This document shows positions 22,570-37,268 of a stretch of 38,987 bases of DNA, piece after piece (the stretch's first letter is position 1; each line of letters starts with the position of its first letter). The DNA comes from Roseofilum reptotaenium CS-1145 (GTDB taxonomy: Bacteria; Cyanobacteriota; Cyanobacteriia; Cyanobacteriales; Desertifilaceae). The position numbers and the translations under genes were made by a program. The stretch covers positions 1 through 38,987 of the forward strand of contig NZ_JAQMUE010000059.1 in the NCBI RefSeq assembly GCF_028330985.1, in the 5' to 3' direction. Under the pieces are notes generated by a model, which was not told where the DNA came from, did not search any database, and saw only the letters and a program-made list of their open reading frames with translations.

Positions 22570-22672
22570 AAGTGCTCTTGCAATAAGGGATAATTGACTT
22601 CATTTTAAACTGAATGGGAGCATCTCAAAAACGTTTTTCTCAGATTTTATGACTTAAAACCGACGAGTAAAC

Positions 22673-22702
22673 TTGACAAAACCTCGAAGTTTCACCTAAG
22701 AT
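22673..22702 (+). promoter_or_regulatory. Sigma70-type promoter of the 8-gene operon
   Basis: TTGACA at 22673-22678 and TAAGAT at 22697-22702 are separated by 18 bases. The predicted start site lies about 30 bases before the GTG start at 22738, and AGAGGA at 22722-22727 gives a good ribosome-binding site. No operator palindrome is obvious. Confidence 0.65.
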
Positions 22703-22737
22703 GAGTCGAAAATTATATTTTAGAGGAAAAATCAATC

Positions 22738-24054
22738 GTGAATAGAGGTTTGCTTTCTCCTTTAGAAATTAAGGCAGTGCTTGAAGATTATGGAACCCCT
22801 TTATATTTGTATGATTTTAACAAAATAGAACACCAATACAGTAAACTCATATCAGGTCTGCCTGCAAACTTTACCGTTCTCTATACCCTGAAAGCCAATA
22901 GTAATTTAAGCATTTGCCACCAATTTGCCCAGTTAGGAGCAGGGGTAGATATCAGTTCAATCGGAGAGTTAAATGCAGCCCTTAAAGCCGGGTTTTCTCC
23001 GGAACAGATTACGTTTACAGGGCCAGGAAAAACGAACTCAGAACTAAGAGCGGCAGTAGAAGCGAGGATTGACACGATTGTGCTAGAGTCCGTTAACGAA
23101 GCTCGTCGATTAAATGATTTTGCAGAGGAAGAAGGAAGAAAACAAGATGTTTTGATTCGGATTAATCCCTTATATCGAACCAGTCAGAGTTGCGAAATAC
23201 GTGAAAAAGGGACGAGTTGTGGGGAGAATGATAGTAAGAATTTGCCACAAAATTTGAAAATTCAAACCATCGCCACTAGCGCCAGTAAATTTGGGGTGGA
23301 TGAAGCTCAAGCTCCAGAAGCAATGATGGCGATCGCGGATTATCCCCATTTGAACTTAAAAGGGATTCATATTTTTACGGAAAGTAACGTTCTCGACTAT
23401 ACGCAATTACTGGCTTCTTGGAAGAATACGATCGCGATCGCAAACCGCCTCAACGACCAAGGCCATGCCATTTCAGTTATTGATTTTGGCGGAGGCATTG
23501 GCATACCCTACAATTGGGTCGATCCTGAATTTGATATGCCCTCTTTTGGTCAAGAATTACAACAAATTTTTGACAACAATTCCTATCCATACCAATGTGT
23601 GGTAGAAATGGGACGTTACCTAGTTGGAGAAGCAGGGTGTTATATCACTGAAGTCGTTGATCTCAAAGAATCTCAAGGTCAAAAATTCATCATTCTCGAT
23701 GGTGGAGTCCACCAACTGTTAAGACTCTCTATGAAGCCAGCAAGCAAATATATGCAAGTGGTGGGAAAGCATAACAGTAAGACTCTGAAAGCCACCTTGG
23801 GAGGAAAGCTACCGACCCCGTTAGATATTATGGTTGAGGATGTTGAGGTTCCAGAAGATATAGGAATCGGCGATCGCCTGGTCATCTATAACTGTGGAGC
23901 CTATGGCTTTAATCATAGCCTGACCAACTTTGCCCTCCACAACTATCCAGCAGAAGTCGCTTATAGTCACGGAGCAATGCACCTTATTCGCGAAAAAGGA
24001 AAAATAGAAGATTTTTTCTGCAATCAAAAATTGCCCTTATTGAACTCCAATTAA
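22738..24054 (+). CDS. LysA-like (fold-type III) PLP-dependent decarboxylase
   Basis: This first gene of the operon encodes 438 residues of the alanine-racemase/ornithine-diaminopimelate decarboxylase fold. The PLP lysine is K52 in LYTLKANSNLSI. DISSIGELNAAL, FTGPGKTNSELRAAVE, the phosphate-binding DFGGGIGIPY, and EMGRYLVGEAG belong to the same family. The C-terminal active-site region reads IYNCGAYGFNHSLTNFALH rather than the GAYG(F/Y)..S..YN(L/G) of true diaminopimelate decarboxylase, and the CESGD motif is not seen. The substrate is therefore probably another amino acid or conjugate; paralogues act on carboxynorspermidine, arginine, or glutamate held on a carrier. Start GTG 22738 has AGAGGA 10 bases upstream. 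The gene ends two bases before the next. Confidence 0.82.
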   Translation: MNRGLLSPLEIKAVLEDYGTPLYLYDFNKIEHQYSKLISGLPANFTVLYTLKANSNLSICHQFAQLGAGVDISSIGELNAALKAGFSPEQITFTGPGKTNSELRAAVEARIDTIVLESVNEARRLNDFAEEEGRKQDVLIRINPLYRTSQSCEIREKGTSCGENDSKNLPQNLKIQTIATSASKFGVDEAQAPEAMMAIADYPHLNLKGIHIFTESNVLDYTQLLASWKNTIAIANRLNDQGHAISVIDFGGGIGIPYNWVDPEFDMPSFGQELQQIFDNNSYPYQCVVEMGRYLVGEAGCYITEVVDLKESQGQKFIILDGGVHQLLRLSMKPASKYMQVVGKHNSKTLKATLGGKLPTPLDIMVEDVEVPEDIGIGDRLVIYNCGAYGFNHSLTNFALHNYPAEVAYSHGAMHLIREKGKIEDFFCNQKLPLLNSN

Positions 24055-24056
24055 CC

Positions 24057-24626
24057 ATGAAACACGTTAAATTTACCGCGATGGAACATGGCGATGGAGA
24101 AGATTACGATTTATTATGTGAAAGTTTTGAAGAATATACCTCCAACTTACCCCAACGCATTTTAGATAGCTTAAGAGAATTGAATACCGCTTATGAAGGT
24201 TATCAAATTTCCCGGTACGAACATTCTTTGCAAACGGCGACTAGAGCCTATCGCAATAACGAAAACGAAGAAACGATAGTTGCAGCATTAATTCATGATA
24301 TAGGGGGAACTTTAGCCCCTTACAACCATGCTGTACTAGCGGCTGCTATTCTTCAACCTTATGTTTCTGAAAAAACGTGTTGGATAGTAGAACATCACGA
24401 TATATTTGTCAAATATTACTGGGGACATCATCGAGGTTTAGACCGTTATACTAGGGAAAAATATCGCCAACATCCCTACTATCAAGCTACGATCGATTTT
24501 TGTCATAACTACGACCAAAATAGTTTTGATCCCAATTATGATACACTCCCTTTAGAGTTCTTTGAACCCATCGTTTACAAAATTTTCGCCCAACCTCGCC
24601 ATCACAGTCCTTATCTTGAAGAGTAG
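24057..24626 (+). CDS. HD-domain protein, PhnZ/TmpB-like putative diiron oxygenase
   Basis: The 189-residue protein has the signature of the HD-domain mixed-valent diiron oxygenase group: YEGYQISRYEHSLQTA (H56) with Tyr and Glu before the first His, then LIHDIGG (H80, D81), YNHAVLAAAIL (H91), and VEHHDIF (H113/H114). It ends with an acidic cluster, NYDQNSFDPNYD, that could give the last metal ligand. Members such as PhnZ and TmpB cleave the C-P bond of hydroxylated phosphonates, and MIOX cleaves inositol. Ordinary HD phosphohydrolases also share the HD core, so oxygenase function is an inference resting on the extra YxxxxSRYEH motif. It follows the decarboxylase by two bases, and an ATP-grasp gene begins 18 bases later. 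Confidence 0.72.
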   Translation: MKHVKFTAMEHGDGEDYDLLCESFEEYTSNLPQRILDSLRELNTAYEGYQISRYEHSLQTATRAYRNNENEETIVAALIHDIGGTLAPYNHAVLAAAILQPYVSEKTCWIVEHHDIFVKYYWGHHRGLDRYTREKYRQHPYYQATIDFCHNYDQNSFDPNYDTLPLEFFEPIVYKIFAQPRHHSPYLEE

Positions 24627-24644
24627 AAAACCGATAACAATATT

Positions 24645-25916
24645 ATGGAACCTATTCCCATCTTAGTTATCTGTCCTAGACCCATAGATTACTTCAACTG
24701 TCAAACCATACCCGAAGCAGAAAAGTATGAATTTCATTTTCTGGATGCGCCCTTAGAATTAAGCGGTTTTAGTCAAAACTTTGATGCCATACAATACTTA
24801 GAAAAGTGCCGTCAATATATTCAACAGCACAATATTAAAGTCCTATTAGCGACTCGTGATATTCCCAGTTTATTCCAAGCACAACTGAGCCAGGAATTTG
24901 AACACTTGCGCGGCCCGAGTGTCGAATCCTCTTTTTTATGCTTGCACAAATATTACACCCATAAAACAATTAATTCCCCATCTAGTCAATATACAATTTG
25001 TTTATTAGAAAAAGAAAAAAATATCTCTGAATATATTCGAGAAATAGAACTACCATTTCCTTGGATCGTCAAACCTTGCACCGGGGCTTGCTCATCAGCA
25101 ATCCTCAAAGTTTCTAAGATTCAAGAAGCTAAAACTGCCATTGGATTTTACCAGGATTATGTAGTAGAAAGAATCCATGACTTACAAAAGTTTTTAGCCC
25201 TTTATTTAGATTCAGATCAATATCCACTCATTAATAGAAATCCAATCTTACTTGAAGAATATGTTGACTATCCCTATAAATGTTGCGTCGATGGATGCGT
25301 GAGCAATGGAGAACTATTAATTTGGGGAATTTCTGACAGTCATTACTATTCAAGACAACCCGAATGTTTTGCCGATTATACCTTTCCTTCTAGTTTACCT
25401 CTGACGATTCAAGATAATCTATTTCGAGAGTATCGGAACATTGTACAACAATTAATCGAGTATGGCTTTGACAATCAATTTATTGACGTAGAATTTTTCG
25501 TCAGCGATCGAGGAACAATAAAACTCATGGAAATTAATGGACGGATGATACCGATATCTGCCGCTCTATATCGTCAGTGTTTAAATCAAGGTGATCCTTA
25601 TACTGCGCTCATTTCAATTGCCATGGGTTCTAGACCCAAAACGCCGACTCTCAACGGATTAGTGGGAGGGATATTTTATATAACTACGTTTGCTAAAGGC
25701 ATTGCTAAAGATATATTTGATTTTGAATTAGCCCATCAATTTTCTGACCTAGAAGTTAGGTTAAATCCCGAAGAGGAAATAACTGAAACAAGTTCTAGTG
25801 GTTTAACTATAGCCGCCCTCAATTTAGTCGGAAACAGTTATGCAGAAATACATGAACAAGCCGATCGAGTAAGACGACAACTTTTGAAACAACCCGAATT
25901 TTCCCCTTGGAATTAA
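24645..25916 (+). CDS. ATP-grasp superfamily ligase
   Basis: The 423-residue protein has an N-terminal region ending near KVLLATRDIPSLF, a central ATP-grasp domain with the nucleotide-binding PWIVKPCTGACSSA (about 145-158), and EEYVDYPYKCCVDGCV. It also has the metal-binding FIDVEFFVSDRGTIKLMEINGRM (Glu and Asn ligands near 295-305). Such enzymes activate a carboxylate as acyl phosphate and join it to an amine or thiol. The peptide-ligase-type architecture and the neighbours suggest amide-bond formation between amino-acid-derived units (inference). HIP1 octamers are absent from the gene and its base composition is AT-rich. It sits 31 bases before the oxygenase gene. Confidence 0.85.
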   Translation: MEPIPILVICPRPIDYFNCQTIPEAEKYEFHFLDAPLELSGFSQNFDAIQYLEKCRQYIQQHNIKVLLATRDIPSLFQAQLSQEFEHLRGPSVESSFLCLHKYYTHKTINSPSSQYTICLLEKEKNISEYIREIELPFPWIVKPCTGACSSAILKVSKIQEAKTAIGFYQDYVVERIHDLQKFLALYLDSDQYPLINRNPILLEEYVDYPYKCCVDGCVSNGELLIWGISDSHYYSRQPECFADYTFPSSLPLTIQDNLFREYRNIVQQLIEYGFDNQFIDVEFFVSDRGTIKLMEINGRMIPISAALYRQCLNQGDPYTALISIAMGSRPKTPTLNGLVGGIFYITTFAKGIAKDIFDFELAHQFSDLEVRLNPEEEITETSSSGLTIAALNLVGNSYAEIHEQADRVRRQLLKQPEFSPWN

Positions 25917-25947
25917 TCTAGATTAACCTGAGCTGAAGTGAATTTTT

Positions 25948-27036
25948 ATGACTGCCATTCAAACCCAATCTTTTATTACCGTCAAAAATAAACGTTTTCA
26001 CTATATCTGGCTGCGAGAAAATTGCCCCAGTTGTCGCTATGCTGCTCCTTATCAACAACTCTACGACCCTAATATTAGCGATCGCCCAGAAAACCCGCAA
26101 CCTCTATCCGTAGATTTAAACGAGGATACCTTAATCATTGACTGGGATGAAACCCCTGCCCATCGTAGCGTATTTTCTGTGGAGTGGTTGCTCGACCATA
26201 GTTACGATCCTCAACCGGAAGTCGATTCAGATAACACCATTTTATGGGATCGAGCCAAACTAGAATTGCGATCGCCGCAAACCTATGATGCGCTGAAGAT
26301 CAATAATGAGAGTTGGATGGAGCCGTTATTTCGCTTAGGATTCGTCATTCTCGAAAATATTGCCCCTGACGAATTGGAATCCTTTCTGTCATCTATCGGT
26401 CCCATTTACAATGCCGATTATGGCAAAATCATGCCCCTGGAAACCAGAGATAGAGCTAAAAATTCCTTACCTTTGAGCGATGGATGTGCTTTACCCCCTC
26501 ATAACGATCTGAGTTACTGGGGAGGGCATCACTTGGCTCAATTTCTCTATTGTGTAGACCATCAAAATCCAGGTGGTTACTCTATATTAGTAGACGGTTT
26601 TCGGGTTGCTGAAGACTTTCGCCAAGATCATCCCCAATATTTTCAAATTTTGGTGGAAACTCCGGTACAATTTTGGTTACTAGACAAAATGCATCAATAT
26701 CAGTTTTGCAATACTGCAACGATCTTGGAATGCGATAGAGAAGGAAAATTGACTACTGTACGTTTTAGCAAAAGGAACTGTAGACCTCATTTACTCTTTG
26801 AGGAATTAGAACATTTATATCAAGCATATCATACTTTTTTTCGCTATCTAAAAAAACCGGATTATCAATATCAGTTTCAGTTGCAACCCCATAACTGTCT
26901 GCTCTTCCAAAATTTTAGAGTCCTGCATGGAAGAACTGCTTTTGATCCCGCTCTTGGAAATCGCAAGCTCAGTTCAGGTTATCTGGATTGGCACTTCTTT
27001 GTGGGCAGGAAGATGTTTCAGAATTACAAAATTTAA
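25948..27036 (+). CDS. Gamma-butyrobetaine hydroxylase-like Fe(II)/2-oxoglutarate oxygenase
   Basis: The 362-residue protein has the two-domain layout of gamma-butyrobetaine and trimethyllysine hydroxylases. Its N-terminal GBBH-like zinc-binding domain (HYIWLRENCPSC, residues 18-29; HRSVFSVEWLLDHSY, 72-86) precedes a TauD/TfdA-type catalytic domain. The iron triad is H185, D187 (LPPHNDLSYW) and H327 (QNFRVLHGRTAF), with R339 for 2-oxoglutarate binding. TmpA, which hydroxylates 2-trimethylaminoethylphosphonate, belongs to the same family and works with an HD oxygenase such as the one encoded two genes upstream. The substrate here is unknown, and the pairing is suggestive only. It begins 31 bases after the ATP-grasp gene. 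Confidence 0.85.
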   Translation: MTAIQTQSFITVKNKRFHYIWLRENCPSCRYAAPYQQLYDPNISDRPENPQPLSVDLNEDTLIIDWDETPAHRSVFSVEWLLDHSYDPQPEVDSDNTILWDRAKLELRSPQTYDALKINNESWMEPLFRLGFVILENIAPDELESFLSSIGPIYNADYGKIMPLETRDRAKNSLPLSDGCALPPHNDLSYWGGHHLAQFLYCVDHQNPGGYSILVDGFRVAEDFRQDHPQYFQILVETPVQFWLLDKMHQYQFCNTATILECDREGKLTTVRFSKRNCRPHLLFEELEHLYQAYHTFFRYLKKPDYQYQFQLQPHNCLLFQNFRVLHGRTAFDPALGNRKLSSGYLDWHFFVGRKMFQNYKI

Positions 27037-27053
27037 TTATTGGAGAATAACTG

Positions 27054-27995
27054 ATGAAAATCGCCTATATTAAACCCAGATTTTTGAATGAGAAAAGAGT
27101 CGGTTTGTTACCACAACATCTCTATCATTGTAGTCGAGAAGATGAACGCAGATTTGAGAGAGACTACGGGAAAAGTTTAGGCATTTCTGATGAAGCTTAT
27201 GGAGAAGGTGCGGGTTATTCTCGTGAAAGTCTCTTTGCTTGGGCAGATGTCATTTACTGTATTAAAGTTCCCCAACCCCAAGATTATCAATATTTTAGAC
27301 AGAATCAAACTCTGGTCGGTTGGATTCATCCCTTTGGTGCATCAGGAAGACATTTTAGGGAACATTGCGCTGAACCGAAAAATATCCAACTGTTTGATGT
27401 GACAAACCGCATTTCAACTCGGGTAACTCAACGACAAATAGAAACACTAAATATTCCTAGGGATATTACTCATAAGAATAGTGTAATAGCAGGTTACGCT
27501 TCCATGATGCAAGCGACGGTGTTGCGTGGGGGGATTACTCAAAACGATCGAGTTGCTGTATTCGGTGGAGGCAATGTGGCTTATGGTGTTTTGAAATTTT
27601 TAGCCAGTCAAGGAATCGATCCTTTATTGCGTCGCCGAAGTACTATCGATCTAGTACAGCAAGAATTTCAAGATTATGATATTTTTATCAATACAGTGGA
27701 AATTAGTCAGGGAGATGCACCTATTGTCACTTTGGAGATGCTAGATTTGATGAGATCTACGGGTTGGATTATTGATGCGGCAGCCGATACAGGTAGAGCC
27801 ATTCAAGGGACTCGCGCAACTAAAATTGAAGATCCAATCTATCAAGATGAGCAAGGACATACATTTTATGTCGTTGATAATTCTCCATCTCTGCTGTATC
27901 GAGAAAGTAGTGAAGCTGTTAGTGAAGGTTATGCCAAGAATTTTTGGTTTAAGCCCATGAGCTATTGGTATAGTGATTTCTGTATTGCCCCTTAA
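27054..27995 (+). CDS. AlaDH/carboxyethylornithine-synthase-like dehydrogenase
   Basis: The 313-residue protein has the N-terminal alanine dehydrogenase/PNT signature (MKIAYIKPRFLNEKRVGLLP) and a Rossmann motif, VAVFGGGNVAYGVLKFL (about 168-184). It lacks the length of alanine dehydrogenase (about 370) and matches the size and layout of N5-(carboxyethyl)ornithine synthase and related small saccharopine-type dehydrogenases, which reductively join a 2-oxo acid to an amino group. That assignment rests on length and motifs only. In this operon it could reduce an imine formed between a keto acid and a diamine or amino acid. It sits 17 bases after the oxygenase gene. Confidence 0.75.
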   Translation: MKIAYIKPRFLNEKRVGLLPQHLYHCSREDERRFERDYGKSLGISDEAYGEGAGYSRESLFAWADVIYCIKVPQPQDYQYFRQNQTLVGWIHPFGASGRHFREHCAEPKNIQLFDVTNRISTRVTQRQIETLNIPRDITHKNSVIAGYASMMQATVLRGGITQNDRVAVFGGGNVAYGVLKFLASQGIDPLLRRRSTIDLVQQEFQDYDIFINTVEISQGDAPIVTLEMLDLMRSTGWIIDAAADTGRAIQGTRATKIEDPIYQDEQGHTFYVVDNSPSLLYRESSEAVSEGYAKNFWFKPMSYWYSDFCIAP

Positions 27996-28022
27996 ACCAA
28001 TATCATATTAAAAAACAGAAAA

Positions 28023-28754
28023 ATGTCAACTAATTTTCAAGTTCGCTTACCGGATAATATCAAAGATTTACCCATTAATGAGGAATATTTTTTTATTACG
28101 GAAAATGGTCAAGAGCGGCGCTTAAAGCTCCATGATTATGCAGAAGTTTATCGGATTCCTGGGCTTTATAACTATTTGGCGTTAGAGAAACTTGCCTATC
28201 GCTCTCCTGAAGTGATGACTACTTTATTAACGGAAAATGTACAAGAGAGCGGTGAGTCGATTCAGGAATTAAAACTATTAGAACTCGGTGCTGGTAGTGG
28301 ATTATTTGGTCAAGCGGTTACTAAGCTTGGAGTGACATCTATTATTGGGATTGATATTGTGCCTGAAGCGGCTGAAGCTTGTCGAAGAGATTATCCGGGA
28401 GTCTATGAAGAGTACTTTGTGGAAGATATGACTGAATTATCACAGTCAACTCGCAAGCTTCTAGGGGAGAAAAAGTTAAATGGTTTTGTGTGTTGTTCGG
28501 CATTGAGTGATGGACATATTCCGGTCAAAGCTTTTATTACGGGGATGAACTTAATCAAGAATCAAGGCTGGGTATTGTTTAATGTGGCAAAATCGAGTTA
28601 CGAATGCAAGGATGATTGTCCTGAGTTTGTCAAGTTTTACCGTCAGTCAGTGGAAAAAGGTTACTTAAACGTGCAGGCGACTCAAACCTATATTCATCGC
28701 TGTTTTTTTAACGGTAAATCTCTGGAATATGTGGCGATTTTAGCAAAAAAATAA
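28023..28754 (+). CDS. Class I SAM-dependent methyltransferase
   Basis: This 243-residue protein has motif I as LELGAGSGLFGQAV (about 91-104), an acidic end of strand 2 in IIGIDIVPEAAEACRR, and a motif IV-like GFVCCSALSDGHIP. It then has motif VI-type NQGWVLFNVAKSSY. It resembles small class I methyltransferases that modify natural products or peptides; the methyl acceptor is unknown. The gene has no HIP1 site. Gaps of 27 bases upstream and 35 bases downstream keep it in the operon. Confidence 0.85.
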   Translation: MSTNFQVRLPDNIKDLPINEEYFFITENGQERRLKLHDYAEVYRIPGLYNYLALEKLAYRSPEVMTTLLTENVQESGESIQELKLLELGAGSGLFGQAVTKLGVTSIIGIDIVPEAAEACRRDYPGVYEEYFVEDMTELSQSTRKLLGEKKLNGFVCCSALSDGHIPVKAFITGMNLIKNQGWVLFNVAKSSYECKDDCPEFVKFYRQSVEKGYLNVQATQTYIHRCFFNGKSLEYVAILAKK

Positions 28755-28789
28755 CAAAATTATCCCACTGAGTTAAGCTAGAAAGTTAG

Positions 28790-29722
28790 ATGGATGCAGA
28801 GTTTTTAAAATCAATTATCGAGAACCGATTTGCTATCCCCGATCGCCATCAGGTTGCTGAACTAACCCCTAAGCTGATGGCGAATTTGGGGGAAGTAACC
28901 TGGGAATTGCGCGATCGCAGCTATATGACGTTGAGCGCCTGGATATGGGGATGGCACGATTGCACCTACTATAGCGATGCAGAGCTGCTGGAGCTGGCAG
29001 AACAGGCTAAACGTAATATTAAGATCGGTCTGGGTGAAGCCGAAAGCGATCGCGTATTTTTGCGAACTTATTCAATTTTGCTCTTAAATGACTTAACCGA
29101 CTTCGATCGCCAGCATCCTTACTTAGACGAGCCAGAAATCCGCGATCGCATGGCACTCTATTTAGAATATCTGCAACAAGAGCAAGATTTAAGAGGCTAT
29201 GTCTGCGATCAAAAAGGATGGGCCCATGGAATTGCCCATGTAGCTGATTCTTTGGTCGTTCTGGGTCGAAATCCTTATCTTAACGAATCCGATCTCATCC
29301 AGCTTTTAGACGGAATAAGTAGCAAATTGCGACACCTCATGGCATCGGTTTACCTCCATTCCGAAGAAGAGAGGCTCGCTAGAGCTGCCGTCAGTATTTG
29401 CCAACGGAATCAATTGACAATAGCGCAAATTAATGATTGGCTCAGGAGATCCATTGAACCCGATCTTCGTCGTCCATCCGGTCGTTTTGTTTGGGATGAC
29501 TTTGAGAGGTATCCTTGGCGAAAAATCCTCACCGATCCGATCGAAAAACTCTGTGCTTATCGAAATCTGCAAAACTTCCTTCGTGCCTTCTATTTCCAGT
29601 GGCAAAACCAAGAAATGGCGACCGAAAGACAGCAAACGGTGCAACACCAAATCGGCCGTGCTTTGGAATTTATTGATGCTGGTTTTTATAATACCACTCA
29701 AGGATTCTTTGTTAATCCCTAA
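28790..29722 (+). CDS. DUF2785 family protein
   Basis: The 310-residue, largely helical protein has the pattern of DUF2785 proteins: a repeated-helix core with RVFLRTYSILLLNDL, a central YLQQEQDLRGYVCDQKGWAHGIAHVADSL and a C-terminal helical half. The conserved GWAHGIAHVADSL carries two His and an Asp that could bind metal or act catalytically, but the family has no established activity. There is no signal peptide. The HIP1 octamers return here (28911, 29047 and others), unlike the genes before it. It is 35 bases downstream of the methyltransferase and 12 bases upstream of the dehydrogenase. Confidence 0.7.
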   Translation: MDAEFLKSIIENRFAIPDRHQVAELTPKLMANLGEVTWELRDRSYMTLSAWIWGWHDCTYYSDAELLELAEQAKRNIKIGLGEAESDRVFLRTYSILLLNDLTDFDRQHPYLDEPEIRDRMALYLEYLQQEQDLRGYVCDQKGWAHGIAHVADSLVVLGRNPYLNESDLIQLLDGISSKLRHLMASVYLHSEEERLARAAVSICQRNQLTIAQINDWLRRSIEPDLRRPSGRFVWDDFERYPWRKILTDPIEKLCAYRNLQNFLRAFYFQWQNQEMATERQQTVQHQIGRALEFIDAGFYNTTQGFFVNP

Positions 29723-29734
29723 CTATAGTATTTT

Positions 29735-30424
29735 ATGTCTAAAATCATTCTAATTACTGGAGTGAGTCGAGGTCTCGGTCGAGCTATGGCCGAGCAATTT
29801 ATCCAGTTAGGACATACGGTTATGGGTTGCGCTCGCAATCAGAAGATCGTTGAGGAACTTAATCAGAATTTTAGCAAACCCCATAATTTTATGGCGGTGG
29901 ATGTAACGGACGATCTGGGAATTAACACCTGGAGTCAAAGGATTTTATCTGAATACGAGCCACCAGATTTACTCATTAACAGTGCTGCGGTTCCCCACCC
30001 GCGCATTCCGCTCTGGGAGATTTCCACAGAAGAATTCGATCGCACGATCGATGTTAATATAAAAGGTGTTGCTAACATCATTCGCCATTTCGTCCCGGCA
30101 ATGGTCGCTCAAAAACGGGGTGTAATTGTTAACTTTAGCGCTGGTTGGGGTCGCTACACGGCAGCCAATGCTGCTCCCTATTGTGCCAGTAAATGGGCGA
30201 TCGAAGGATTGACTGGAGCATTAGCCCAAGAATTACCTTCAGGAATGGCAGCCGTTTCCCTGTGGCCGGGAACTATCCATACCGATACCTTAGAATATAT
30301 TTATGGAGCAGAAAAAGCGGCTGGTTATATTTCTCCTCAAACATGGGCACAGATTGCTGTACCGTTCTTGCTGCAAATTGGAGCGAGTGATAATGGCAAG
30401 CCCTTATCTATTCCAACGGGATAA
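29735..30424 (+). CDS. Short-chain dehydrogenase/reductase
   Basis: The 229-residue classical SDR has the TGVSRGLG cofactor loop (residues 9-16), DVTDD, INSAAVPHP (a variant of NNAG) and the catalytic triad S135, Y149 and K153 (YCASK). It is probably the last gene of the operon, 12 bases after DUF2785; the next gene has its own conserved leader 42 bases later. An SDR could oxidise or reduce an alcohol or ketone made by the oxygenase, which is inference. Its cofactor cannot be told, as no clear basic residue marks NADP preference beyond Arg in CARNQ. Confidence 0.85.
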   Translation: MSKIILITGVSRGLGRAMAEQFIQLGHTVMGCARNQKIVEELNQNFSKPHNFMAVDVTDDLGINTWSQRILSEYEPPDLLINSAAVPHPRIPLWEISTEEFDRTIDVNIKGVANIIRHFVPAMVAQKRGVIVNFSAGWGRYTAANAAPYCASKWAIEGLTGALAQELPSGMAAVSLWPGTIHTDTLEYIYGAEKAAGYISPQTWAQIAVPFLLQIGASDNGKPLSIPTG

Positions 30425-30449
30425 TAGTATCTTGATTTAAGATCGCTTT

Positions 30450-36518: not shown

Positions 36519-37268
36519 ATGGTAACTACCCCTGATTTTTCCTTCTTTCCTCCCCGTCAATTAGCAACAGATTTTGATGATTTTATCGTTTTAAATTCTG
36601 TGCCAGGACAGAACTCCTTAATTGGCTATGCTGGAGGAGCCTGGGCCCTAGCGGGAAATGACACGATCTTTGGGTCTAATCTGAGTGAAGTGATTTTAGG
36701 GAACCTGAACAACGATCAATTGCGAGGAGGTTCAGGGGGCGATCGCCTCTTAGGAGGACAAAATGAAGATCTCCTCTTTGGTGAAAACGGAGATGACTTG
36801 CTTCGAGGAGACCTCGGTAACGACCAACTCTTCGGAGAAGCAGGTAATGACACCCTCAGAGGAGGCCAAGGTAACGATCTCCTCGACGGGGGAATTGGAC
36901 AAGATTTTATTATCGGAGATTTAGGTGTAGATAGCCTCGTTGGAGGCAATGGCTTTGATACCCTAGTTTTGCGTACCGATGAAGCGAACATTAACCCCAA
37001 TTTCGTCGATCTGATCCTGGACTGGAATCCCACCCAAGACTTAATTGGCCTCACCAATGGATTATGCACTTGCGATCTAGGCTTTGATACCAGTCGCAAC
37101 CTGGCTGGAGGAGGAGCCAACGATACCTTAATTATCATTGGTTCAACGGGCCAAAGTTTAGGTATTGTTGTAGACTACACCCTAGGTTTAGGGTCAGCTA
37201 ACTTTACGACCCTTACTCAAAACGACTTACAAGTGGGTTCTAATGTCTTTTTTCCTCTGATCCCGTAA
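36519..37268 (+). CDS. RTX-type calcium-binding protein, short paralogue
   Basis: The 249-residue protein contains about eight hemolysin-type glycine/aspartate nonapeptides between residues 55 and 145 (GGSGGDRLLGGQNEDLLFG, then GENGDDLLRGDLGNDQLFG). These form calcium-filled beta-rolls in proteins usually exported by type I secretion. An N-terminal domain (FDDFIVLNSVPGQNSLIGY) precedes the repeats, and a conserved C-terminus (VLRTDEANINPNFVDLILDW) follows them. No N-terminal signal peptide is present, as expected. The start is ATG 36519; weak upstream AT-rich context gives no clear ribosome-binding site. It is paralogous to the C-terminal half of the next gene. Confidence 0.85.
   Translation: MVTTPDFSFFPPRQLATDFDDFIVLNSVPGQNSLIGYAGGAWALAGNDTIFGSNLSEVILGNLNNDQLRGGSGGDRLLGGQNEDLLFGENGDDLLRGDLGNDQLFGEAGNDTLRGGQGNDLLDGGIGQDFIIGDLGVDSLVGGNGFDTLVLRTDEANINPNFVDLILDWNPTQDLIGLTNGLCTCDLGFDTSRNLAGGGANDTLIIIGSTGQSLGIVVDYTLGLGSANFTTLTQNDLQVGSNVFFPLIP

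Follow-up and report, generated by a model that had tools for sequence, protein, structure and literature searches.

The window analysed here is contig C59 of Roseofilum reptotaenium CS-1145 (NZ_JAQMUE010000059.1; 38,987 nucleotides), from a genome of 5.67 Mb in 113 contigs. It contains an operon of eight plus-strand open reading frames (ORFs), all in the same direction, which extends from position 22738 to 30424 and has intergenic gaps of 2, 18, 31, 17, 27, 35 and 12 bases. The genes were labelled A to H in 5'→3' order (Table 1); sampled genomes and loci are referred to by G and L numbers, respectively. The preliminary description of this DNA had recognized eight co-directional genes with gaps of 2-35 bases and had assigned each of them to a family. 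The coordinates, strand and gaps were confirmed, and the assignments agree with Pfam and NCBIfam. It had also reported the absence of a carrier-protein gene, and indeed no acyl carrier protein (ACP) is encoded among the eight genes; the sole ACP-like motif in the window, at 36918, lies in a stretch that by eye consists of glycine-rich repeats, within an ORF that was not scanned.

All eight genes are under purifying selection (dN/dS, the ratio of non-synonymous to synonymous substitution rates, 0.06-0.20 versus G414), and A to H can therefore be regarded as constrained proteins. The G+C content is 40.8% within the operon and 45.7% in the window outside it. The locus is probably a horizontally moving operon of specialised metabolism, composed of a constant four-enzyme core and an exchangeable oxidation and ligation module, with the chemistry proposed below. 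Such a core-plus-module design would explain why the gene list fits no single pathway.

Table 1. Features of the operon and its boundaries in the window; dN/dS values of A to H were computed against the congener G414.
Feature	Position	Strand	Assignment or basis
Left copy of GGGATAAT	22587..22594		8-base repeat bounding the block absent from G426; sequence comparison with G426
Candidate promoter TTGACA-N18-TAAGAT	22673..22702	+	promoter scan
Gene A (core)	22738..24054	+	BtrK/LysA-like pyridoxal phosphate-dependent decarboxylase; ornithine/diaminopimelate (DAP) type (Pfam, NCBIfam); dN/dS 0.15
Gene B (module)	24057..24626	+	HD-domain protein, PhnZ/TmpB-like putative diiron oxygenase; dN/dS 0.06
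Gene C (module)	24645..25916	+	ATP-grasp ligase (ATP-grasp_4); dN/dS 0.16
Gene D (module)	25948..27036	+	TauD, GBBH/TmpA-like Fe(II)/2-oxoglutarate (2OG) oxygenase; dN/dS 0.13
Gene E (core)	27054..27995	+	alanine-dehydrogenase-like NAD(P)-dependent enzyme (AlaDh_PNT); dN/dS 0.09
Gene F (core)	28023..28754	+	class I S-adenosylmethionine-dependent methyltransferase; dN/dS 0.20
Gene G	28790..29722	+	DUF2785 protein; dN/dS 0.17
Gene H (core)	29735..30424	+	short-chain dehydrogenase/reductase (SDR); dN/dS 0.11
Right copy of GGGATAAT	30418..30425		contains the stop codon of gene H

Distribution and history of core and module

The main survey comprised 388 genomes sampled from the order, the window included, and used E-value cut-offs of ≤1e-75 for A, ≤1e-12 for E, ≤1e-15 for F and ≤1e-6 for B. 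Gene A was present in 7 genomes, E in 12, B in 16 and F in 28 (8 of these at ≥79% identity, window included). In all seven A-positive genomes A, E, H and F are located together on one contig. Five of the seven also carry B, C, D and G, and the whole set is therefore found in 5/388 genomes, namely the window, G414, G437, Okeania hirsuta (L008/L028) and a Trichodesmium metagenome-assembled genome (MAG; L010/L029). The A orthologues and the B orthologues of at least 84% identity occur in the same five genomes. In the remaining two, G589 and G116, other genes replace B-C-D-G. The G589 cluster (L097) consists of A, a PhyH oxygenase, E, H and F, while that of G116 (L098) contains A, a weakly HalD-like oxygenase, an AsnB-like amidotransferase, a MurL-like protein (89.9 bits versus a cut-off of 700), PhyH, an isochorismatase-like hydrolase, E, H and F. 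The A match in G116 begins at residue 65, includes one stop and lies close to the contig end.

The full operons are not uniform in layout: an additional PhyH gene is present in Okeania and a WbmS-like deacetylase gene in G437, and in Okeania and Trichodesmium the order of F, G and H differs from that of the window. The incomplete version in another Okeania MAG (L009/L091) comprises a disrupted C and part of D, along with E and F. In the loci compared, G was found only alongside B-C-D, no genome-wide search for G having been made. Orthologues of C are present in 3/6 genomes of the genus of the window. Within the genus Okeania a C orthologue was found in 1/5 genomes and a 41% homologue in another 1/5, and in a phylum-wide sample C was detected in 4/386 genomes, all matches except the window itself being only 23-30% identical.

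The phylogenies of core and module genes were compared for the five full operons using three topologies, in all of which Okeania and Trichodesmium stand together. In the B+C+D tree, G414 groups with Okeania and Trichodesmium; in the A+E+F tree, the window groups with G414. In approximately unbiased (AU) tests the B+C+D data reject the A+E+F tree (p=6.5e-5) and the A+E+F data reject the B+C+D tree (0.008). The synonymous divergence (dS) between the window and G414 is 0.87, 1.06 and 1.02 for B, C and D, compared to 0.52, 0.43 and 0.36 for A, E and F, 0.67 and 0.71 for G and H, and 0.34-0.48 for four neighbouring genes. Judged from these sequences, A, E, H and F are the constant core and B-C-D is a module with its own history.

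With respect to the preliminary description, the proposed biosynthetic-type operon is upheld as a real unit, conserved, co-inherited and under purifying selection, which recurs in 5/388 genomes. The treatment of the eight genes as one fixed pathway has to be given up, as only A, E, H and F are constant, B-C-D follow their own tree, and L097 and L098 differ. As to one check and one refuting condition named in that description, the LysA-like, HD and ATP-grasp genes co-occur in 5/7 A-positive genomes but not in G589 and G116, and the gene set recurs in five genomes but with the altered order noted above in two of them.

The PhyH oxygenases of three sister clusters (L098:5159-6019, L097:7213-8106 and L008:13570-14667) carry HQG, HQL and HQN at the HxD site, while L031 has HSD. 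Hydroxylases carry HxD, and an altered motif is an iron halogenase signature. The Okeania PhyH protein scores 137.9 bits versus 226.3 for the chlorinating-enzyme model. In addition, short A-like pieces adjoin F paralogues at L101, L103 and L104, as if derived from a decayed A-F pair.

The operon as one block and its surroundings

In the related genome G426, whose flanking sequences are ~96% identical to those of the window, position 22594 is joined directly to 30418 and the entire operon is missing. The G426 joint consists of a single copy of GGGATAAT, whereas the window has this sequence at both ends of the block; the G426 contig stops ~80 bases past the joint. The difference between the two reflects a gain in the window lineage or a loss in G426.

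In G437, a further congener, the operon occupies another chromosomal site, and the PDH-beta neighbour sits on a separate contig. The DNA similarity between G437 and the window spans 22666-30424 and is broken at the D-E joint and in the E-F spacer. At the former, D and E of G437 form one 643-residue ORF (L030:10774-12705), a deletion having taken ~29 N-terminal residues of E. This fusion was considered as a sign of joint action of D and E, and was dropped because the residues removed include a conserved Arg. In G414, the genes to the left are those of the window and lie within duplicated XisH/XisI and tetratricopeptide repeat (TPR) sequence.

Pairs of XisH/XisI genes, often doubled, flank the cassette site (window:30467-31978; L027, L039, L124, L125), and in L039 such pairs are also located near an HD/TauD pair. 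The operon neighbours that were scanned encode XisH, XisI, cupin, TPR, RTX, AMP-binding and PfkB proteins. A gene for a Cupin_8/JmjC-type hydroxylase-like protein (window:32971-34095) lies downstream of the operon, at a distance of ~2.5 kb.

The 'clear promoter' of the preliminary description proved weaker than stated. Since the promoter scan found 30 sites versus 29.9 in shuffled sequences, the TTGACA-N18-TAAGAT pair alone means little. The sequence GTAAACTTGACAAA at the candidate promoter is identical in G437, and its last 12 bases also occur in G414. The -35 box is conserved both in G414 and, despite the different chromosomal site, in G437; the -10 box is conserved only in G414 (TAAAGT in G437). 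Neither box was seen in the Okeania and Trichodesmium operons. A terminator scan yielded 14 candidates versus 10.6 expected and was not convincing.

Conserved residues and gene neighbourhood of the oxygenases B and D

As in TmpA/TmpB and PhnY/PhnZ, an Fe(II)/2OG hydroxylase gene adjoins here a gene for an HD-domain diiron-type oxygenase, with the metal ligands intact. The closest solved relatives of B are TmpB and PhnZ, which it matches over just 43-50 residues (E about 1e-4 to 3e-4), and it scores far under the NCBIfam cut-offs (38.2 of 214.6 bits for TIGR03276; 34.8 of 300 for the TmpB model). Those of D are TmpA, DfmD and gamma-butyrobetaine hydroxylase (GBBH), with E-values of 4e-32 to 2e-24. 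It belongs to the same Fe(II)/2OG family as DfmD and GBBH (25% and 23% identity), but is also below the curated cut-offs (TmpA 196.4/400, GBBH 177.5/414.75, TMLD 168/268.3 bits). The H..HD..H..H..D metal set (H56, H80, D81, H91, H114 and D153 in the window) is complete in 16/16 full-length homologues of B; the alignment did not include a 17th match, which is only a fragment (G540). The Fe ligands H, D, H and the 2OG-binding Arg of D are intact in 14/14 aligned rows, references included.

The substrate-contacting positions depart from those of TmpA/TmpB and PhnY/PhnZ, in that the YxxE Glu and two of three cage positions are lost. According to PMC8177086, the Glu of the YxxE loop of TmpB and PhnZ comes close enough to the amino group of the substrate to form a hydrogen bond. 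The window has YEGY at this site, and the Glu is absent in 16/16 HD homologues. In GBBH, the trimethylammonium group is held in a cage of Tyr177, Trp181 and Tyr194 (PMC13257696). In D, position 177 is conserved, while 181 and 194 are non-aromatic in 9/9 sequences of the window and the group linked to polyketide synthases (PKSs), position 194 being less certain as it falls in a gapped stretch. Aromatic residues are retained at both positions in G429_C2 and G486, two sequences that cluster with TmpA. The cage result weakens the case for a quaternary-amine substrate of D, and in this group the substrate of B and D would be something other than an aminophosphonate or a simple trimethylamine.

A tblastn search with D (cut-off 1e-4) detected a TauD/GBBH-like gene near the HD gene at 11/17 loci, and at 4 of these 11 a PKS ending in a thioesterase stands beside the pair. 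Next to PKSs, carbon chains would be the expected substrates of the pair, and this speaks for cleavage of C-C bonds. The hydroxylate-then-cleave module would thus most likely cut a C-C bond. At two of the loci, L040 and L041, a PKS gene is followed by genes for TauD, HD, a methyltransferase, EgtB-like FGE/DinB, DUF427 and an EgtC-like amidotransferase (parts of L040 assigned by eye); this is an orphan cluster with ergothioneine-type genes.

Proposed chemistry and competing interpretations

The best solved match of A is BtrK (7e-60), followed by DAP decarboxylase (2e-50), and A falls below the LysA cut-off (TIGR01048, 281.8/297.9 bits). The BtrK clade comprises FigC, SbnH, AcsE and MccE as well as DAP decarboxylases and D-ODC, and several of its members act on amino acids already bearing another group (PMC7857480). 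By analogy with these members, A is expected to act on a derivatised amino acid. The conserved functional residues R, K, H, D and N of alanine dehydrogenase (2eez) have aligned counterparts in E of the window, which scores below the cut-off for that enzyme (TIGR00518, 44.1/391.85 bits). Sequence searches of the PDB yielded three weak matches for C (best 0.008) and none for F or G.

In the proposed scheme, E would join or reduce an amino acid or a 2-oxo acid, and A would, like BtrK, FigC, SbnH and MccE, decarboxylate an amino acid already substituted at its other end. C would form an amide using ATP and F would methylate N or O. D would hydroxylate an unactivated carbon; B would then, by a four-electron diiron oxidation, break the bond adjacent to the carbinol made by D, most probably one between two carbons, and leave a shortened carboxylate, and H would adjust an alcohol or ketone. 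This would yield a small compound derived from amino acids and assembled with no carrier protein. Amino acids as the substrate, and the order of steps, are what we infer from these assignments.

Among known systems, the butirosin side-chain pathway (BtrJ/BtrK/BtrI) resembles the operon in that A is nearest to BtrK and an ATP-grasp ligase stands alongside, BtrJ being such a ligase. In contrast to butirosin, no carrier protein was found in or near the operon, and a dehydrogenase, a methyltransferase and oxygenases are added. In BesD/BesC/BesA-type amino-acid editing, iron oxygenases and an ATP-grasp ligase act on free amino acids without a carrier. This system is alike in kind, and its gene set differs. 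Compared to TmpA/TmpB and PhnY/PhnZ, the pair of the window is embedded in an operon with a ligase, a decarboxylase and a methyltransferase, and its relatives lie beside PKSs. The preliminary remark that no described pathway with this combination was known to its author still holds for the matches listed in searches on HD/2OG pairs, BtrK-like genes and Okeania/Trichodesmium clusters, none of which, as listed, describes the operon; subscription literature was thinly covered, and this absence is provisional. The operon appears to vary two known themes, the carrier-free amino-acid operon and, here in a biosynthetic setting, the TmpA/TmpB-like pair.

A broader proposal, which we advance tentatively and with some doubt, is that movable mix-and-match operons in filamentous cyanobacteria use the four-enzyme core to build amino-acid metabolites of a new, carrier-free class, and that the HD/2OG pair, known mainly from the breakdown of phosphonates, has been re-purposed as a general biosynthetic module which hydroxylates and then cuts a C-C bond, so that carbon chains become shorter both here and after PKSs. 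A 2020 review (PMC8177086) puts the number of HD-domain oxygenases at three, with inositol or phosphonates as their substrates. If the proposal is true, the pair in a biosynthetic operon and beside PKSs would bring that chemistry into natural-product assembly; C-C cleavage by an HD/2OG pair becomes directly testable, and the operon may lead to a new metabolite and to a novel means of breaking carbon bonds. Common cluster finders lean on genes for nonribosomal peptide synthetases (NRPSs), PKSs or ribosomally synthesized and post-translationally modified peptides (RiPPs). The adjacency of A, E, H and F can serve as a search criterion that does not depend on any such gene.

Several observations weigh against the core-and-module operon and the chemistry proposed for it. 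Among the eight genes, the Pfam/NCBIfam scan revealed no transporter or regulator. The A+E+F+G+H data do not discriminate between the trees (AU 0.63 and 0.37) and so do not reject the B-C-D tree, which G+H weakly favours, and the fused E of G437 lacks its conserved Arg. No TauD homologue was found at 6/17 HD loci (five with a full-length HD gene; the sixth is the G540 fragment, whose contig measures 7.3 kb), and an AlphaFold2 model of B built from three sequences had a mean confidence (pLDDT) of 48 and was not used. At L033 the HD ORF overlaps that of a binding protein with NMT1 and phosphonate-binding (38 bits) matches, which suggests that phosphonates or sulfonates are involved in the function of that branch. 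Finally, the DfmD relatives are argued in PMC9296572 to act on N-methylated substrates, methyltransferases being nearby. Methyltransferase genes also lie near the pair at L031, L038, L040 and L041 (seen by eye, confirmed by Pfam for L038), which, by this argument, favours an amine substrate.

Of the alternatives, osmolyte or betaine metabolism fares best and is still unlikely. The operon would then serve to make or trim a methylated amino acid that acts as compatible solute and not as a signal or defence compound, consistent with its methyltransferase, GBBH-like oxygenase and amino-acid dehydrogenase, the lack of an export gene, and the glycine-betaine-type binding protein gene next to the 41% C homologue at L133. 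However, the patchy occurrence (3/6 genomes of the genus) and the exchangeable tailoring genes in the sister clusters fit specialised metabolism better, and the cage residues of D are partly lost.

We give little credence to phosphonate scavenging, in which D and B would act as TmpA and TmpB, an aminophosphonate being hydroxylated and its C-P bond cut to release phosphate. The closest solved relatives (TmpA, 4e-32; TmpB/PhnZ, 1e-4) and the L033 binding protein adjoining a related HD gene point that way; against it stand the missing YxxE Glu (16/16), the loss of two of three cage positions (9/9), the absence of phosphonate transporter and C-P pathway genes among the eight, and the PKSs beside the pair at 4 loci. 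The genome itself has two PF13714 matches, neither with EDKx5NS, the motif of phosphoenolpyruvate (PEP) mutase (PepM): one above the cut-off (35.7 bits) in a 75-residue open frame, the other below it in a frame that by eye is PanB. Scavenging, though, would not need PepM.

Similarly improbable is a division into two functions under one promoter, with A-E-H-F making one compound and B-C-D(-G) acting on something else. The conflict between the B-C-D and core trees, and the core lacking B-C-D-G in G116 and G589, would suit it, but in these two genomes other oxygenases (in G116 also the AsnB-like amidotransferase) occupy the A-E interval, as tailoring genes would, and A coincides with the B orthologues of at least 84% identity in the same five genomes. 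There is an equally small chance that no hydroxylate-then-cleave pair exists, B being a common HD phosphohydrolase and D hydroxylating in some unrelated step: the short matches of B to TmpB/PhnZ, its scores far under the NCBIfam cut-offs and its unusable model (pLDDT 48) speak for this view, the complete H..HD..H..H..D set in 16/16 and the TauD/GBBH-type gene nearby at 11/17 loci against it. Malyngamides, mycosporine-like amino acids and siderophores were dropped as products, since the eight genes show none of the enzyme families associated with them.

Besides the core-and-module operon favoured here, several related loci were recorded. The HD genes of L033 and L036, ~58% identical to B, adjoin a gene for a periplasmic binding protein with NMT1 and phosphonate-binding matches (Pfam on L033 only). 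E occurs at 79-80% identity in another type of cluster in four genomes (L093-L096), with repeated methyltransferases, GNAT and a class III aminotransferase by eye, the aminotransferase being confirmed for L095. At L133, the C homologue also stands beside an ELFV amino-acid dehydrogenase and a carboxyl methyltransferase, repeating the combination of dehydrogenase, methyltransferase and ATP-grasp ligase. The model of G is all-helical with low confidence (mean pLDDT 60), and its best Foldseek E-value was 7e-3 (none ≤0.001), the matches being mostly designed and helical-repeat proteins. The genome of the window encodes a second ATP-grasp protein, ~28% identical to C, at L044 (C100:1-15000), with a long C-terminal part that is beta-propeller-like by eye. 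Its gene adjoins those for a pterin-binding (DHPS-like) protein, a methyltransferase, an SDR and a RidA-like protein, perhaps a pterin-type small-molecule cluster.

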